Shown piece after piece: positions 5,637 through 24,988 of a stretch of DNA of 25,320 bases. The first letter of the stretch is position 1. Each line of letters starts with the position of its first letter. Source of the stretch: a virus; the IMG/VR virus record IMGVR_UViG_3300031673_000440, positions 1 to 25,320 of that record; one strand, written 5' to 3'. Position numbers and translations under genes: made by a program. A model generated the notes under the pieces. That model searched no databases, had not been told where the DNA came from, and was given only the letters and a program-made list of their open reading frames with translations.

Positions 5637-5640
5637 TTCA

Positions 5641-5672
5641 TCAAAATTCTTTTTTATTTTTTTATTTTATTT
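5641..5672 (+). terminator. T-rich terminator
   Basis: After the acidic protein gene there are runs of five to eight Ts broken by single As (TTCTTTTTTATTTTTTTATTT). Archaeal RNA polymerase stops at such T-runs without needing a hairpin. Confidence 0.6.
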
Positions 5673-5677
5673 AGAAA

Positions 5678-5857
5678 ATGGATCCTCTTAAAGAATACCT
5701 AAGAGATTTGGCAGGCCGAGAAGAGGCTTGGAAAAAATTCAGAGAGAAAGCTTGTGATCTCCAAGAAATGATGACAACTTATTGTAAAGATTATGATTCT
5801 GAGAGATGCCCTGGAACTTGTGATTATGCTCAGAAGAGAAAAGACATGTGTGCATAA
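5678..5857 (+). CDS. Small Cys-motif protein, hypothetical
   Basis: A 59-residue frame from ATG 5678 to TAA 5855-5857. The product has an amphipathic charged N-terminal helix (LKEYLRDLAGREEAWKKF) and five cysteines, four of them in its second half (YCKDYDSERCPGTC and a final C). The C-x7-C-x3-C spacing could bind a metal or form disulfides. It follows the T-run directly and has no strong ribosome site, so it may use readthrough or a weak leader. No family is recognised. Confidence 0.55.
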   Translation: MDPLKEYLRDLAGREEAWKKFREKACDLQEMMTTYCKDYDSERCPGTCDYAQKRKDMCA

Positions 5858-5886
5858 TTTTATAAAGAATTAATGGCTTTAAATAA

Positions 5887-5939
5887 AGAGGGAAATTTCT
5901 TTTACTGGCGTGAAAGTATTCCATTCCCTCTCTTTTTTT
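5887..5939 (+). terminator. Hairpin followed by T7
   Basis: AGAGGGAA at 5887-5894 pairs perfectly with TTCCCTCT at 5924-5931, and a run of seven Ts follows at 5933-5939. This fits a terminator for the upstream small Cys gene. The loop is about 29 bases. Confidence 0.6.
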
Positions 5940-5975
5940 ATAACTTTTTAGTGGCAATGCAATATTTCTAAAATA

Positions 5976-5990
5976 GGCAACTTTTAAAAA
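5976..5990 (+). promoter_or_regulatory. Archaeal promoter ahead of a gene-free region
   Basis: GGCAA (BRE-like) at 5976-5980 precedes CTTTTAAAAA at 5981-5990. The predicted start is near 6008-6012. No protein frame begins for about 370 bases, so the expected product is an RNA or a long leader. Confidence 0.6.
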
Positions 5991-6007
5991 GAGAGGTTGA
6001 GTAGTCA

Positions 6008-6360
6008 TGTTCTATGGAAAATATTCACGCCTCTAACCGAAGAAGCATTGAGCAGAAGGTTATGCGATAAAAAATACAGTAGGTGAAACTGTCGGTGAAC
6101 AACTAATGCCTCACAAGGGCTAATATAGGTCTGATTGCCTGGGTCTAACAGACTAAGCAAGGGGCCTGTAGTTAGGTTTATCGTTAGTAGATGGCTAGGC
6201 ATATCGGTTGCCAGGTTGAAAATTCCCCTCCAAAAAGGAGAAATAATAAATACTGCCTTGATTTTTTTGCTGGCTTAAAGTGCAACCAGAGGAACCTACG
6301 GTTCAGTACCAAATGCGTTGCACAAACAACACACAACACAATTCACCCAATACAAGCCAT
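6008..6360 (+). ncRNA. Candidate structured non-coding RNA or long 5' leader
   Basis: This stretch has no credible frame on either strand but many local helices: TAACC with GGTTA around 6036-6061; ACAGT with ACTGT around loop AGGTGAA near 6076-6092; TTGC/GCAA enclosing GTCT-AAC-AGAC near 6136-6161; GGCA with TGCC near 6198-6213; CTCC with GGAG across A5 near 6226-6239; and GAACC-TAC-GGTTC near 6291-6303. It lies between a promoter and the AGGAGG of the next gene. I tried RNase P RNA, SRP RNA, group I intron and C/D box signatures and found no convincing match. Confidence 0.4.
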
Positions 6361-6384
6361 TAATTAAATGTCAGGAGGGGAAAA

Positions 6385-14613: not shown

Positions 14614-15125
14614 AAGATAAATTTATTTTAGATGCATGTTGTGGGGGGAGAATGTTTTGGTTTGATAAGAATCATAAAAACACTCTTTATGTAGATCATA
14701 GAGAATTAAAGAAAGGATCTCTTAAAAAAACTCCTAACTTTGAAGTAAAGCCAGATAAAATAATGGATTTTAGAAAATTAGATCTTCCAGATAACTCTTT
14801 TAAATTGGTTGTTTTCGATCCTCCACATTTAAAATCACTAGAACAAAATTCTTGGATAGCTGCAAAATATGGCACGCTAAATCCAGAAACATGGAGAGAA
14901 GATATTTTGAAAGGATTTAATGAATGTTACAGAGTCTTAGAAGATTATGGAGTTTTAATTTTTAAGTGGAGCAAATCAAATGATAATAGAAAAAAGAGAG
15001 ATGTCTCAATAGCGGGGATCTTGAAGCTTTTACCTGTCAGGCCTTTATTCGGCCATCCATCAGGAAGCAAAATAAATACTATTTGGATGTGTTTTATGAA
15101 AATTCCAGGAGGCAAAAATGGATAA
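14610..15125 (+). CDS. Phage-type SAM-dependent methyltransferase
   Basis: The 171-residue product has an AdoMet-binding start LDACCGGRMFWF (residues 7-18) and the catalytic-type motif FDPPH (69-73), which resembles the (D/N)PP(Y/F) tetrad of amino-methyltransferases but has His in the last position. GFNECYRVLEDYGVLIFKW follows as in class I methyltransferases. The substrate may be DNA adenine or another base. It overlaps both neighbours. The unusual His makes DNA N6 specificity uncertain. Confidence 0.72.
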   Translation: MKDKFILDACCGGRMFWFDKNHKNTLYVDHRELKKGSLKKTPNFEVKPDKIMDFRKLDLPDNSFKLVVFDPPHLKSLEQNSWIAAKYGTLNPETWREDILKGFNECYRVLEDYGVLIFKWSKSNDNRKKRDVSIAGILKLLPVRPLFGHPSGSKINTIWMCFMKIPGGKNG

Positions 15126-15582
15126 AAAAACAATGGGAAAAAAGTCTAGGCAAGCAGGAGCTCGTTTTGAATTGAAAGTTAGAGAAGATCTTGAAAAGCA
15201 AGGATTTATAGTTGCAAAGTGGTCAAATAATGTTGAGTTTCATAATGATGAAGGGCCACATGATCTTCCATTTACAAAAGGCAAGCTAGTGAAAGTCAAG
15301 AATAAGTTTTTAGGCCCAGGTAGACCAATGATGTTAGGTGCAGGATTTCCAGATTTTATTGCATTTTTTAAAATTTATGCAGAGGATGATGATGGAAAAT
15401 GTTTAGCATATATGCCTTGTTATGAAATTATGGGGGTAGAATCAAAGATGCGAGGAATTTTAGATAAGGCTGAGAAACAGAAATGTAAGTGGTTGCTTGA
15501 TAATAATATCTTTAGTAAAATTGTGATTGCGCATAAGGGAGAAAAGCGTGGAGAGATAAGTTATAAAGAATTTAATACTTAA
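15118..15582 (+). CDS. PD-(D/E)XK nuclease, VRR-NUC or Hjc-like
   Basis: The 154-residue product begins GKKSRQAGARFELKVREDLE, the helix with a metal-ligand Glu (Glu18) typical of Hjc/VRR-NUC folds, then GFPDFIAFF (Asp79) and YEIMGVESK (Glu108, Lys110), the E-x-K of the active site. It probably cuts branched or structured DNA during viral recombination and packaging. AGGAGG precedes the ATG. It overlaps the methyltransferase by 8 bases. Confidence 0.75.
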   Translation: MDKKTMGKKSRQAGARFELKVREDLEKQGFIVAKWSNNVEFHNDEGPHDLPFTKGKLVKVKNKFLGPGRPMMLGAGFPDFIAFFKIYAEDDDGKCLAYMPCYEIMGVESKMRGILDKAEKQKCKWLLDNNIFSKIVIAHKGEKRGEISYKEFNT

Positions 15583-15693: not shown

Positions 15694-15841
15694 GCTTGTG
15701 TGGTTTTAATGGCAAAATGACTGCCTTGTAATCAGCCAGGGGAGATTTCGGATTTACCTGGTGGCTAGCCAACTCACAAAAGTGAGATCTTGCTATCCGA
15801 CGAGAGAGCAGTGGATCCAGGTTCGAATCCTGGCACAAGCT
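15694..15841 (+). tRNA. tRNA-Thr(UGU) with a 76-base intron
   Basis: A full cloverleaf: acceptor GCTTGTG/CACAAGC (15694-15700, 15834-15840), a D arm with TGG in the loop, anticodon stem ACTGC/GCAGT (15720-15724, 15808-15812), anticodon TGT at 15727-15729, and T arm CCAGG-TTCGAAT-CCTGG (15817-15833). The anticodon loop is interrupted after position 37 by 15731-15806. The junctions form a bulge-helix-bulge: CTTG pairs with CGAG, flanked by three-base bulges TAA and AGA, with cuts after the second base of each. The intron contains a CCAGG/CCTGG helix and CTCAC/GTGAG hairpin. Splicing needs the host endonuclease. Confidence 0.93.
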
Positions 15842-15955
15842 TCGCCTAACATTGCAGGGCAGAAGTGTCCGAGTTCGTATTTCAAGAGCGAACAAAAAGA
15901 GAAAGAGATTGGCGAGAGGTTGAAATGCCTTTAAAAAGTCTCTTCTCTTAACTAA
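15842..15955 (+). other. Structured spacer with promoter of the downstream tRNA
   Basis: TTCGCC at 15841-15846 can pair with GGCGAG at 15911-15916, enclosing GTTCG/CGAAC (hairpin near 15873-15893) and GGGC/GTCC. AAGAGAAAGAGA and TCTCTTCTCTT form an alternative long helix. TATA box TTTAAAAAG at 15930-15938 lies 26 bases upstream of the second tRNA, so it should drive that tRNA. Confidence 0.45.
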
Positions 15956-16059
15956 AGCAATGTAGAATAATGGTAGTTCGGGAGCCTCATGAGAATTAGC
16001 TTTTGCCGAGTTTTATTCTGAAAAAGCTTCAAGCCATGGTTCGATTCCATGCATTGCTA
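15956..16059 (+). tRNA. tRNA with CAU anticodon (Met or Ile2), 33-base intron
   Basis: Cloverleaf: acceptor AGCAATG/CATTGCT, D stem GAAT/GTTC, anticodon stem GGAGC/GCTTC (15981-15985, 16026-16030), anticodon CAT at 15988-15990 and T arm CATGG-TTCGATT-CCATG. Intron 15992-16024 interrupts after position 37. Its junctions form bulge TGA, helix TCA/TGA plus a C-A mismatch, bulge AAA, and intron helix GAAT/ATTC. It lacks the three G-C pairs that mark archaeal initiators at 29-31, so it should be elongator Met or the AUA-reading Ile2 with modified C34. A1-U72 is unusual for either. Confidence 0.9.
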
Positions 16060-16075: not shown

Positions 16076-16105
16076 AAGATTTAAATATAATCTTATAATT
16101 ATAAT
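16076..16105 (+). promoter_or_regulatory. AT-rich promoter region of the regulator pair
   Basis: AAGATTTAAATATAA at 16076-16090 provides a TATA-like box. The following ATTATAATCATATATT is so AT-rich that the exact box is uncertain. A start about 20 bases upstream of the GTG at 16126 is expected. Confidence 0.4.
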
Positions 16106-16125: not shown

Positions 16126-16335
16126 GTGAGTTCAAAAAAAGAGTTAAAACGTAAAAATGTTTACTTTGAGACATTTCAACGTGTAGAGAAATTTTTGAAG
16201 GAGCAAAAAGAGCCTTTATTTAAAGCTGATCTAGTAAGAAAACTTGGAGTTGATTTAAATTCATTAAAATTGATTCTTGAAAAGCTTCCAGTTAAAATAG
16301 ATAAAGAAGGGAGGATCAAACTATGCTCGAAATAA
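16126..16335 (+). CDS. Small winged-helix-like protein, GTG start
   Basis: The 69-residue product begins with GTG and has a winged-helix pattern: VEKFLKEQKEPLFKADLVRKLG, recognition-like helix VDLNSLKLILEKLP, and end VKIDKEGRIKL. It is rich in Lys, as typical of archaeal DNA-binding proteins. Its last codons carry GGGAGG for the next gene (overlap 13 bases). The start is a GTG, with only a weak ribosome site. Confidence 0.6.
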   Translation: MSSKKELKRKNVYFETFQRVEKFLKEQKEPLFKADLVRKLGVDLNSLKLILEKLPVKIDKEGRIKLCSK

Positions 16336-18562: not shown

Positions 18563-18943
18563 ATGGAACAAAATACAACAAAATTAACAATAACGCAGAA
18601 ATATACAAACTTTATTGAATCTTACATAGACAACGGAGGAAATATTTCTAGGGCCTGTGAAGAAGTAGGAATTAATAGAACAACTTTTTACAGATGGTTA
18701 AAACGTCCAAAGTTTAAAATTATGTTTGATGATGCCTTAGAGAAGCATAACGATCTTATTTTCCAGAGGATACTTAAAATGGCTTTGGACTCCGATAAAG
18801 ATATGCTTAAATTCTGGGCAAGGACTCAAATGAAACACAGGGGTTTTTCTGAAAAGCAAGAGATTGAATTATCTGGAAAAGTAGATATTCCTGTATGGAC
18901 TAAAGAAGAAAAAGAGGCGGAGTTGAAAAGACTCTTTGGATAA
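18563..18943 (+). CDS. Putative terminase small subunit
   Basis: The 126-residue product has an N-terminal helix-turn-helix (GGNISRACEEVGINRTTFYRWLKRPKFK), a helical middle (ALEKHNDLIFQRILKMALDSDKDMLKFWART) and a charged tail. The position immediately upstream of the large subunit and the HTH-then-helix layout suit small terminases that recognise the packaging site. It shares its last base region with the next start. Alternative: a phage HTH regulator. Confidence 0.75.
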   Translation: MEQNTTKLTITQKYTNFIESYIDNGGNISRACEEVGINRTTFYRWLKRPKFKIMFDDALEKHNDLIFQRILKMALDSDKDMLKFWARTQMKHRGFSEKQEIELSGKVDIPVWTKEEKEAELKRLFG

Positions 18944-20457
18944 TGAAAGTAACTAAGGCCCAAGTAGAAGAAATCTTTAATAAAGTTAAGGATGAAACCA
19001 AACAAAAAGAATATTTGAAGATGGTTTTTTCTTTCAAGGAGAATATTGAGGTGTTTAGCCAGATCGTTTTCCCGGAAACCATAACCAATAAGATCCCAGA
19101 CTTTCACCAAGAGATTTATGAGTTACTTTTTAGAGATGGAAATGACGCCCTTGCAGCGCCCAGAGGGCATGCAAAGACATCTCTTACAGGAATAGTTTTC
19201 TTGATCTTTTGTATTGTAAATAATTTAGAGAAGTATATTGTTTATATTTCTCAAAATCATTCTAAGACTGTGCAGTTTATTGAGCCTATTCGATATGAAT
19301 TTAAGAATAATAAAATGTTGAGGTTTATTTATGGAGATCTAACACCACGTCCAGGAAGAGATGATGATGGAAGAGACAGAGAAGATTGTTTTGATGTTGG
19401 AGAATGTAGGGTTGAAGCAGCATCTTTTGAAAAAAATATTAGAGGTTTTAAATATAGAAACATTAGGCCTACTTTAATAATTGGAGATGATATAGAATCT
19501 GATGAGAGAGTTTTAAATCCTGAATTAAGAGAGAAAGATCGAATGAAGCTAAACAAAGTAATTATTCCTTCTTTAGATATTAAAGGAAGATTCAAGATGA
19601 TTGGAACTCTTTTACATTTAGATTCTCTTTTATATAACAAAGTAAAGCTCTACAAAGGACAAATATTCAAAGCATGTGATGCAGACTTAAAGAATATCTT
19701 GTGGCCTGATAGATTTACTAAAGAGATCCTAAAAAAGATTAAATATGATATAGGCTCTGTAGCCTTTCAACAGGAGTATCTAAATGATCCAGTAGACAGT
19801 GCAAGTTCAATAATTAAAAGAGAATGGATAGAACAATGTTTTAGGGCAGATTTATCCTCTGAGGAGATTTATGAAATAGAGTTTAGTATGAAAACTATGG
19901 GAGCGGACTTTGCCTTTTCAGATAGGATCTCTGCAGATGAATCAGCTTACGCTGGCTTAGGATTAAAAGATAATTTTTATTATTTATTGCATTGTCAAAA
20001 AGACAAAGGGCTGTCTGTAAATGAGCAAATGATGATCTTAAAGAATGAGTTATTTCCAAGGTATAAATATGATAGAATGGGCTTGGAAGAAAACTCAATT
20101 AAAGCAATTAGTAAAGATATTCAACAATGGAATTTGCCTATAACCTTATTTTGGACTGCTGCATCAGACCCTGCAACACAAAAGAGGGTTCGTGACTGGA
20201 CAGATAAGCGTCATACCGTTGGTAAAATTAATTTAATTATGAGGTTGGGAACTGCATTTGAAAATAAGAGATTTATAATTCCTTATAAAACAGAGAGGGA
20301 TAAACAAACTGCACAGAAAATTTTAGCAGAGTGCATGTCTTATGCCTTATCTGATGGAAAATTAGTGGAGGCAGGAGTGCATCCAGACATCCCAATTGCC
20401 TTAGGATATGCTTTAGAATTGATGAGTATAAACGAATCCGCTTGGGCTTTTGCTTGA
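18943..20457 (+). CDS. terL: Terminase large subunit
   Basis: The 504-residue product has an ATPase with Walker A-like APRGHAKTS (residues 72-80), Walker B LIIGDDIE (178-185), coupling motif MIGT (219-222), and FQQEYLNDP (275-283), often seen at the end of terminase ATPase domains. The nuclease half has GADFAFSD (Asp322), a Glu pair in GLEENS (382-383) and a late HPDIPIAL, giving an RNase H-like acidic triad. It pumps viral DNA into the procapsid through the portal and cuts concatemers. Length is normal for the family. Confidence 0.88.
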   Translation: MKVTKAQVEEIFNKVKDETKQKEYLKMVFSFKENIEVFSQIVFPETITNKIPDFHQEIYELLFRDGNDALAAPRGHAKTSLTGIVFLIFCIVNNLEKYIVYISQNHSKTVQFIEPIRYEFKNNKMLRFIYGDLTPRPGRDDDGRDREDCFDVGECRVEAASFEKNIRGFKYRNIRPTLIIGDDIESDERVLNPELREKDRMKLNKVIIPSLDIKGRFKMIGTLLHLDSLLYNKVKLYKGQIFKACDADLKNILWPDRFTKEILKKIKYDIGSVAFQQEYLNDPVDSASSIIKREWIEQCFRADLSSEEIYEIEFSMKTMGADFAFSDRISADESAYAGLGLKDNFYYLLHCQKDKGLSVNEQMMILKNELFPRYKYDRMGLEENSIKAISKDIQQWNLPITLFWTAASDPATQKRVRDWTDKRHTVGKINLIMRLGTAFENKRFIIPYKTERDKQTAQKILAECMSYALSDGKLVEAGVHPDIPIALGYALELMSINESAWAFA

Positions 20458-20522: not shown

Positions 20523-22790
20523 ATGTTCATGGCAAGAACTTTTAAGAATTTTTTCGGACTCTTAGGAGAAACTAAAGCAGAGGGAACTTCGCCAGTAACG
20601 GCGTTTGAAGAGACTAGAGAGGGCCAACCCAAAGCTTATATTCCTAATTTTTTCTATAAGCCTCCTTTTGGTTATCCAAGATATAAAGATCTAAGTTATT
20701 TTAGGCAACTTGCTGCATCTATTTATGTTGATATGTGTGAGACTGCAATTATTGATGAAGTGTGTGCTGTTGATTGGGGGATCGTTGCAGAAGATGAAGA
20801 TGGAAATGAGCTAGTAGGGAAAGAAAAAGAGATTGAGATTGTTAGAAGTTTTTTTAATAATCCAAATACAAATCCTGAGAGTTGGGAAATGATCGTACGA
20901 ATGATGTTGCCTGATTTGTTAGAAATTAATTCTGGAATAATGGTTAAAGTTTTTAATATGTTTGGCCAGATGGTTGAGATTGTTTCTAGAGATGGAATGG
21001 CCTTTACAAAGAATCCAGATGTTTATGGGATGTACACTAATAGAGCAGAATTAATTATGATTAAAGATATTGCGGAAGAAGGTTCAGAAGGGATGCAAAG
21101 TGTTTATCCAGCTATTCAAGGATATTTAACAGAGGGCCAAGCAAGAGATGATGGGGCTTATTTTCAATATGGATTTAATACAGGAGCTCGTCCTGTTCCT
21201 TTTGGAAAGAGAGAAATAGTTTGGTTTGAAAAGAAATTAAGAACAGATGATCTTTATGGGAGATCTGCTATGGAAGTTTTAGCAAAGACAGTTCAGACAT
21301 TAGTTTATGCAGTAGAACACAATCTAGAATATTTTTCTGATAATTCAATTCCTCCAGGGGTTTTAGGATTAGAAGGAATGAGCACACCTGATATGAAAGC
21401 ATTTGCTCAGCAATGGATAGAATCACAAAAGAAATCAGATGATCTTGGCAATTGGAAAAAGGTCTTTCATAAATTGGCTATGGTTAATAAGATGCCTAAA
21501 TTTGAGAGAATGGGTTTTACTAATGCAGAACTTGAATTAATAGAATCTCAAAAGTGGTGGAGTAAAATGGTTTGGGCTGCATTTGGTATAACGGCAACAG
21601 AGCTTGGTTTTGTTGAGGATGCCAAAGGATCTGCAAATCAAATTGTTCAAAGTTCAATTGCTAAAAAAAGAATTATTTATCCCATTTTAAGATTAATTGA
21701 ATATTATGTAAACACACAAATTATTCCTGAGTTTGGTTTTGAGGGAATCAAATATAAATATAAGATCTTCGATGTTGATGAGGAAACAAAGAAGTGGGGA
21801 TTATATAAATTACAAACAGAAGCAGGATTAAGATCAGTTAATGAAGTTAGAAGCACAGAAGGTCTAGACGATGTTGAGTGGGGAGATGAGGCCCCTAATA
21901 AGTGGAATGCAAATCAAGGGATGAATGTTAATATGAATGATCCAAGGGCCCAAGAGTATGATAGAATGAATAATCAGAATCAGCAAGAGAGAGATAGGCA
22001 ATTAAACAAACCAAAGAAACCTGTTGTTAGTGATGGAAAGCCAAAGAAAGAAGAAAAAGCTTTAGACACAAATACTCCTTTAACCTTACGACCTGGGGAA
22101 GAGATGGGTGATAAAAAATTAAAAAAAGAGATCATAGATCTTCTTAATAAAAACAAGAAGAAAATAATTGAGGTCCTAGAAACCCAAAAAGCAGATGACC
22201 AATTAATAAAAATAAAAGGCATTGATGATATCCCAAAAATGATTAAAAAAATATTTGAGTTATTTTCTTTAAAGGAAATAAGTGATAAAATAATTCGATC
22301 TCAATTTAGTAGTGGATGGGATGAATCAGAGAAAAGGATTGATCAAAACGTTCCTTTTAATGAAAAGGCCTTACAATTCTTGCAGGATCATACTTTTGAT
22401 AATATAAAAGGTATGACAGAAGAGATCTCTAATGATTTAAAAGCAGAGTTAGAAAGAGGAATTATAAATGGAGAGGGAATTACAAAGCTTAAAGAGAGAG
22501 TTAGTAATGTTTTTAATGTTGGAGAGAATCGTGCAGAAATGATTGCCAGGACAGAGACAAATCGGGCAGAAAACAATGGGAAATTACTGGCTATGAAAGG
22601 ATCTGGTTTAGATTATGATAAGAAATGGGTGTCAACTGAGGATGATAGAACATCAGATTTATGTAAACATTTAGATGGGCAAATAGTTGGACTTGATGAA
22701 AATTTTCATTATGGAAAATGGTCTGGACAGGCCCCTCCTGCGCATGTTGATTGTAGAAGCACTATTGTTTTTATCAAAAAAGAGGAATAA
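20523..22790 (+). CDS. Portal protein fused to a MuF-like head domain
   Basis: This 755-residue protein (in-frame ATG also at 20529) joins a portal domain, residues about 35-470, to a Mu gpF-like head morphogenesis domain, about 610-750. Portal signs include FYKPPFGYPRYKDLSYFRQL, the conserved GRSAMEVLAKTVQTL region, QKWWSKMVWAAFGIT and the late loop ending in VNEVRSTEGLDDVEWGDEA. A charged linker at about 490-560 lies between. The MuF part has ENRAEMIARTETNRAENNG, the STEDDRTSDLCKHLDG stretch and PAHVDCRSTIVF, the Mu_F signature. The portal forms the DNA entry ring, and MuF is an internal head protein. No toxin domain is appended. Confidence 0.85.
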   Translation: MFMARTFKNFFGLLGETKAEGTSPVTAFEETREGQPKAYIPNFFYKPPFGYPRYKDLSYFRQLAASIYVDMCETAIIDEVCAVDWGIVAEDEDGNELVGKEKEIEIVRSFFNNPNTNPESWEMIVRMMLPDLLEINSGIMVKVFNMFGQMVEIVSRDGMAFTKNPDVYGMYTNRAELIMIKDIAEEGSEGMQSVYPAIQGYLTEGQARDDGAYFQYGFNTGARPVPFGKREIVWFEKKLRTDDLYGRSAMEVLAKTVQTLVYAVEHNLEYFSDNSIPPGVLGLEGMSTPDMKAFAQQWIESQKKSDDLGNWKKVFHKLAMVNKMPKFERMGFTNAELELIESQKWWSKMVWAAFGITATELGFVEDAKGSANQIVQSSIAKKRIIYPILRLIEYYVNTQIIPEFGFEGIKYKYKIFDVDEETKKWGLYKLQTEAGLRSVNEVRSTEGLDDVEWGDEAPNKWNANQGMNVNMNDPRAQEYDRMNNQNQQERDRQLNKPKKPVVSDGKPKKEEKALDTNTPLTLRPGEEMGDKKLKKEIIDLLNKNKKKIIEVLETQKADDQLIKIKGIDDIPKMIKKIFELFSLKEISDKIIRSQFSSGWDESEKRIDQNVPFNEKALQFLQDHTFDNIKGMTEEISNDLKAELERGIINGEGITKLKERVSNVFNVGENRAEMIARTETNRAENNGKLLAMKGSGLDYDKKWVSTEDDRTSDLCKHLDGQIVGLDENFHYGKWSGQAPPAHVDCRSTIVFIKKEE

Positions 22791-23884: not shown

Positions 23885-24988
23885 ATGGAAAGAGCTTTTA
23901 CAGGCATTGTAGATGAAGGAATGGATGCACAAGATGCATACGCAAAATCATTTGCAGGTCTGAAAAACAAGACAAAGTATTGGGACCCAGTTAGTGGAAT
24001 AGATTTGAGACCTGAGGCAGGTTTCAAAGCTACAACTACAACTCAGGGTGGAGCAGGAACAGCTGGATATGCAATGATTCCTGTTTATCTTTCTCCAATG
24101 ATCGTAGATCAATCAAGAAAGAGAACTCCATTAGTTGAGTTAATTCCTAGAGTAACAAACTTAGGAATGTACGCTGACTACAACAACATTACTACAAAAG
24201 GGGCTGCTGCTGTTGCGACAGAAGATGGAGCCTTACCAGAAACTGATGACACTATGGATAGAACCTCAGTGCCTATCAAATTTCTTTACAGTGTTGGAAG
24301 AGTAACAGGACCTGCTCAGGCAGGACAACCTGCATTCGTTTTAGAAGGTTTCCAGGGAACTGGAAGCGGACTTGGCGGAAGTGCTTTTTCAAGTGTTGGT
24401 GCACCTAATGCAATGCAATTAAGAGTCTTAACTGCTGCAAGAGCGATAAAGGAATTGGAAGAGAGTTTGATTGTTAATGGTGATGCAAGTACAACTGCAA
24501 CAGAGTTTTCTGGAATTGTAAAATTACAGGGCACAACAAATGTTGTAGATTTGAATGGTGCAGCATTGACATACGATGATATCGAAACAGCTTGCCAATA
24601 TTCTTTCGATGACGGAGGAATAATTAAGTTAGCTGTTGGATCAAGCGCTGCTGTTAGAGATGTTAGAAAGATTATATTAGATACTTTCCGATATAGTCCA
24701 AGTGATATCCCTGGCGGAGTCTTGCCTTTCGGTGTCCCATCAGCTGTTTTACTTCAAACTATGGTTGGGCCAGTACCACTGATCCCTTCAATGTATTTGA
24801 GTAACACATCAGGTGCAAAACAAATATTCTTCCTTGATACAGATTTCATCGAGATGAGAGTTCTACAAGATATGACTTATGAGAGATTAGGTAAAACTAA
24901 TGATTCAGACAAGTTTTTCTTGAAAATATATGAATGTCTTATCATGAGAAATCCTGCGTTCAATGCATTTATAGATGACATATTGTAA
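23885..24988 (+). CDS. HK97-fold major capsid protein
   Basis: The 367-residue product follows the protease, as usual. It has a charged N-terminal segment, a Gly/Thr-rich stretch (TTTTQGGAGTAGYAMIPVYLSP), the TPLVELIPRV motif, the RAIKELEESLIVNGDAST helix seen in HK97-fold capsid proteins, and a beta-rich C-terminus ending MRNPAFNAFIDDIL. More C/G-ending codons than in neighbouring genes suggest high expression. Cleavage of the N-terminal segment by the upstream protease is likely but not visible. Confidence 0.85.
   Translation: MERAFTGIVDEGMDAQDAYAKSFAGLKNKTKYWDPVSGIDLRPEAGFKATTTTQGGAGTAGYAMIPVYLSPMIVDQSRKRTPLVELIPRVTNLGMYADYNNITTKGAAAVATEDGALPETDDTMDRTSVPIKFLYSVGRVTGPAQAGQPAFVLEGFQGTGSGLGGSAFSSVGAPNAMQLRVLTAARAIKELEESLIVNGDASTTATEFSGIVKLQGTTNVVDLNGAALTYDDIETACQYSFDDGGIIKLAVGSSAAVRDVRKIILDTFRYSPSDIPGGVLPFGVPSAVLLQTMVGPVPLIPSMYLSNTSGAKQIFFLDTDFIEMRVLQDMTYERLGKTNDSDKFFLKIYECLIMRNPAFNAFIDDIL

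Follow-up and report, generated by a model that had tools for sequence, protein, structure and literature searches.

The window analyzed here is the IMG/VR virus record IMGVR_UViG_3300031673_000440 over its whole length of 25,320 bases, and represents an incomplete genome. The window was regarded as belonging to the genome of a tailed virus on the basis of three encoded proteins: a terminase (18943-20457), a portal protein joined to a Mu-F-like domain (20523-22790), and a major capsid protein of the SU10/HK97 type (23885-24988). Syntenic relatives in IMG/VR also back this placement. Two tRNA genes are located on its plus strand, at 15694-15841 and 15956-16059. Both matched the Rfam family RF00005 along the entire model (positions 1-71 of 71), with scores of 45.7 and 51.1 bits, respectively, above the cut-off of 29 bits, and both alignments contained long inserts in the anticodon loop. 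When ARAGORN was run without introns the first gene was missed and the second was misread as a tRNA-Lys at 15966-16059, a call that was discarded as an artefact of the unspliced CAU gene. Once introns were permitted, the program reported the two genes as tRNA-Thr(tgt), interrupted by an intron of 76 nt, and tRNA-Met(cat), interrupted by one of 33 nt, and it read both in-silico spliced sequences as ordinary cloverleaves. The original prediction of two tRNAs that fold as cloverleaves only once an intron at position 37/38 is taken out was therefore confirmed by Rfam and ARAGORN.

The tRNA-Thr gene consists of a 5' exon at 15694-15730 carrying the anticodon UGU at 15727-15729 (delimited by Rfam, ARAGORN with introns and the splice register), the intron at 15731-15806 (ARAGORN, shuffles and splice register), and a 3' exon at 15807-15841 that ends in U73 and has no encoded CCA (Rfam and ARAGORN). 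The second gene, based on the same lines of evidence, comprises a 5' exon at 15956-15991 with the CAU anticodon at 15988-15990, the intron at 15992-16024, and a 3' exon at 16025-16059, followed by TTTTT and likewise lacking an encoded CCA. Every arm of both tRNAs was fully paired, counting G-U pairs, and intron removal at the canonical 37/38 position restored anticodon loops of 7 nt (CTTGTA|A in the tRNA-Thr and CTCATG|A in the CAU tRNA, the bar marking the junction). No box C/D guide, of the type that sits in archaeal tRNA-Trp introns, was seen when the Thr intron was inspected by eye.

In the bulge-helix-bulge (BHB) motif, a 3-nt bulge lies on either side of a 4-bp helix, which takes in the first two bases of the anticodon (PMC4090602). 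Splice sites were slid by -2 to +1 around each junction and the BHB pairs were scored; among these registers, only 37/38 yielded a BHB, in both genes. At the Thr junction the central helix CUUG/CGAG (15725-15728/15801-15804) had 4/4 pairs and was flanked by the bulges UAA (15729-15731) and AGA (15805-15807), while the intron-side helix was weak (UC/GA with 2 pairs, a mismatch and 1 pair). The CAU junction had a central helix CUCA/UGAA with 3/4 pairs (15986-15989/16019-16022; C32-A mismatch), bulges UGA (15990-15992) and AAA (16023-16025), and an intron-side helix GAAU/AUUC with 4/4 pairs (15993-15996/16015-16018). Of the trials with dinucleotide-shuffled introns, 0.68% for Thr and 0.44% for CAU equalled the observed BHB level, and an annotated intron used as positive control, that of the tRNA-Ala of Halogranum tailed virus 1 (HGTV-1), scored 4/4 and 4/4 by the same test. 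Given these shuffle rates and the single defect at each junction, the motif is above chance, though slightly relaxed in each copy. With the cloverleaf as the only constraint, the minimum-energy structure of the Thr precursor recovered the BHB central helix; for the CAU precursor, enforcing the BHB helix cost 3.1 kcal/mol relative to the best cloverleaf fold. Judged from their predicted pairing, both introns are thus BHB-like in a slightly relaxed form: the BHB-type junction at 37/38 that had been proposed for both held, but the description as clean was too strong, with one defect in each.

On the 5' side, the tRNA genes are neighboured by a plus-strand gene at 15118-15582 with no Pfam match, which marks the tRNA slot in related viruses, and 3' of both tRNAs, upstream of a gene starting at 16126, there is a TTTAAATA box on the plus strand (16080-16087). 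The spacer between the tRNA genes (15842-15955, plus strand) contains several hairpins and folded better than its shuffles (z -3.2), with no convincing family match in Rfam. It was considered as a third tRNA and rejected, as no tRNA match was obtained even at E 10; its predicted folding suggests that it may be a further small RNA. Elsewhere in the window, a region of about 750 bases (5637-6384) showed little coding signal on the plus strand, and positions 6005-6345 had the look of an RNA gene by eye, yet folded no better than shuffles (z -0.1).

A nucleotide search of annotated phages with the tRNA region gave no match, and an exact search for the tRNA pieces across IMG/VR retrieved only a second assembly of the same virus (L003), which is 99.8% identical across 11 kb and also carries both tRNA genes. 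In the related virus L118, a CAU tRNA immediately follows a homologue of the gene at 15118 (77% identical) and is in turn followed by a TTTAAATA box and then by a gene that, on visual comparison, resembles the window gene at 16126. The L118 tRNA is intronless, and its loop, CTCATGA, is exactly the predicted spliced loop of the window CAU tRNA. The exons of the two share only 58% identity, which does not exceed that with other viral tRNAs, so that the argument from L118 is carried by synteny and the loop rather than by overall sequence. The locus had been proposed to be viral rather than captured from a host chromosome, and the presence in a related virus of a tRNA between the same genes supports this reading. 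Intronless tRNAs were also found elsewhere in the same virus group (Ala and CAU in L004, Gly and Thr in L031, CAU in L025). Together with that of L118, they differ from the window tRNAs in the lack of introns, in their acceptor stems and, in part, in isotype. Among 41 related records searched, clear BHB introns were present only in L003. The presence and absence of introns in one slot of related viruses constitutes a small natural series for the study of tRNA-intron gain and loss on mobile DNA.

Several unusual elements were noticed in the related records. A tRNA gene above the Rfam cut-off in L011 (12531-12609) has roughly 15 nt in its anticodon loop, too few for a BHB intron to fit, and is probably not a normal tRNA. 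Two tRNA-like elements, L026:2370-2475 and L106:17360-17443, share a GCGAGAG acceptor stem and a T arm with no normal middle, and are possibly degenerate or unusual tRNA-like RNAs. In L085, a near-threshold match to the skipping-rope RNA RF02924 (L085:1181-1266, equivalent to G028:27148-27233; 35.0 bits, cut-off 36.7) adjoins two tRNA genes, and its acceptor stem and T arm resemble those of a tRNA.

As regards the host domain, bacteria are, to our knowledge, devoid of a tRNA splicing endonuclease, and for this reason the introns are the strongest sign of an archaeal host; among the control genomes, the splicing endonuclease family was found only in the four archaea. TATA-like TTTAWA boxes were present 21-60 bases upstream of 9 of the 12 promoter-capable starts, compared with 1.9 in shuffles; the motif is nearly palindromic, and 7 of the 12 regions have it on the other strand too. 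Sigma-70-like sites were below shuffle expectation (39 vs. 56). The Thr tRNA has G1-C72, C2-G71 and U73, as in the archaeal determinants, and the tRNA-Gly of the relative L031 has A73, the base found in archaea and eukaryotes, as opposed to U73 in bacteria (PMC9976931). The Thr tRNA of HGTV-1 likewise has U73. A terminase-profile scan of GTDB genomes recovered one 3.6-kb contig binned with an alphaproteobacterium, which was set aside as too distant (55%) and too short. As read from the genome alone, promoters, tRNA determinants and introns point to an archaeal host; the archaeal character of the system had been anticipated, and is backed by the BHB-type introns, the TATA-like boxes and the Thr identity bases. 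Intron-bearing tRNAs can flag archaeal viruses in metagenomes even when no host genome is at hand.

Neither the window nor 17 related records yielded a match to the EndA splicing endonuclease family, and the same set contained no RtcB ligase, in a search that did recover the RtcB of HGTV-1. The window being incomplete, this absence is no proof, but with no viral EndA or RtcB found, maturation of the tRNAs most likely relies on host enzymes. The heavy use of ACA, AUA and AUG codons put forward originally was borne out by the counts in the genes of the window, where ACA accounted for 51% of Thr codons (25 per 1000), AUA for 34% of Ile codons (26 per 1000), and AUG for 29 per 1000. This codon use is consistent with supplementation, and equally with the replacement of tRNAs lost to host nucleases. 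Overall, the window very probably derives from an archaeal tailed virus with functional-looking Thr(UGU) and CAU tRNA genes, interrupted at 37/38 by BHB-type introns and matured by the host. The intron-bearing form was probably acquired from a cell or from another virus. Once transcribed, each precursor would be cut at both bulges by the host splicing endonuclease, its exons would be joined by the host RtcB ligase, and CCA would be added by host enzymes; the mature, charged tRNAs would then supplement the reading of ACA and AUG (or AUA), or replace host tRNAs lost during infection. Under such a scheme the introns would tie the virus to host tRNA splicing.

The CAU tRNA is the most unusual part of the locus. 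A1-U72 occurs in all archaeal initiator tRNAs, which also have G-C pairs at 29-41, 30-40 and 31-39 (PMC6412873). The window tRNA has A1-U72 and A73, and A1-U72 is found in the CAU tRNAs of L025 and L043 too, as would be expected if it were a diverged initiator that boosts or restores initiation on viral messages, and neither an elongator Met nor an Ile2 tRNA. However, its anticodon stem, GGAGC/GCUUC, has A-U, G-C and C-G at positions 29-31 instead of the set G29-C41, G30-C40 and G31-C39, and the CAU tRNAs of L004 and L118 have G1-C72 and U1-A72, respectively, so that an initiator role is considered unlikely. Following the predicted splicing, a G comes directly after the anticodon in the window tRNA, and the same base is found in L118, L025 and L043 (4 of the 5 CAU tRNAs of the group), L004 having A. 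G37 is unusual in tRNAs reading codons that start with A, and it therefore counts against the preferred reading of host-spliced tRNAs that supplement translation. This recurrent G37 would fit a role in counter-defence, in which the viral tRNAs, spliced in the manner described above, stand in for those host tRNAs that VapC or other anticodon nucleases have destroyed, the altered loop or the intron-bearing precursor making them harder to cut. Evasion of tRNA nucleases has been proposed for phage tRNAs with an altered anticodon loop (PMC10264068), but that pattern was shown for bacteriophages only, and the anticodon stem of L043 has two mismatches and is possibly non-functional. Counter-defence is accordingly regarded as a tentative possibility. 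A combination of the two ideas, by which an initiator-derived CAU tRNA with a G37 loop and an intron-masked precursor was kept by this virus group in order to survive host nucleases that cleave initiator or Met tRNA, appears quite improbable. We know of no earlier archaeal case of tRNA-based counter-defence, and this would, if true, be the first.

Two further alternatives were considered. Degenerate-looking tRNA-like elements do occur in viruses of the group (L011, L026 and L106), and the two genes could in principle be decaying pseudogenes with insertions that are merely intron-like; against this, both tRNAs are fully paired in every arm, counting G-U, and a BHB fits each junction at the canonical register, which makes decay a very improbable explanation. 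tRNA genes serve as attachment sites in many archaeal viruses (PMC4090602, PMC3293823), and the original prediction included a role of these loci in integration or recombination. No Phage_integrase domain (PF00589) was found in the window, a partial genome, or in 17 related records, and the tRNA genes are complete rather than 3' fragments, for which reasons that role is unsupported; the tRNA set, in addition, varies among relatives. Integration through these genes is thus held to be extremely improbable, and the reading of functional-looking, probably host-matured tRNAs is retained.

Compared with cellular archaeal introns at 37/38, those of the window are alike in position, in BHB layout and in length, which falls within the range of 11-129 nt (PMC4090602), and differ in their viral location and in that the 76-nt intron is longer than the median lengths of 12-25 nt given for most isoacceptors. 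The closest viral counterpart is HGTV-1, an archaeal tailed virus that also has intron-bearing tRNAs. The genome of this haloarchaeal virus measures 144 kb and encodes 36 tRNAs, RtcB and two ligases of the Rnl2 family (PMC8651126). Its record (KC292026) annotates "tRNA Ala (tgc) + Intron" and "tRNA Asp (gtc) + Intron", and the Ala intron, of 31 nt and located at 37/38, forms a perfect BHB. The same genome has an annotated tRNA-Met(cat) at 50108-50193 (L116:1109-1194) of 86 nt whose variable arm appears to be long, which is unusual in a Met tRNA. Acidianus virus AFV1 was dismissed as a precedent, since its record annotates no tRNA and ARAGORN listed no intron-bearing tRNA there. Based on the HGTV-1 annotations and the perfect Ala BHB, intron-bearing tRNAs in archaeal tailed viruses were already on record, and the novelty originally implied was too strong. 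The window virus differs from HGTV-1 in its isotypes, in its relaxed BHBs, in that no RtcB was found, and in having two tRNAs in the assembled part. The pair is an unusual but well-supported new example with precedent in one cultured archaeal virus, and adds a case from another, uncultured group of viruses, in which both tRNAs of the assembled part are interrupted.
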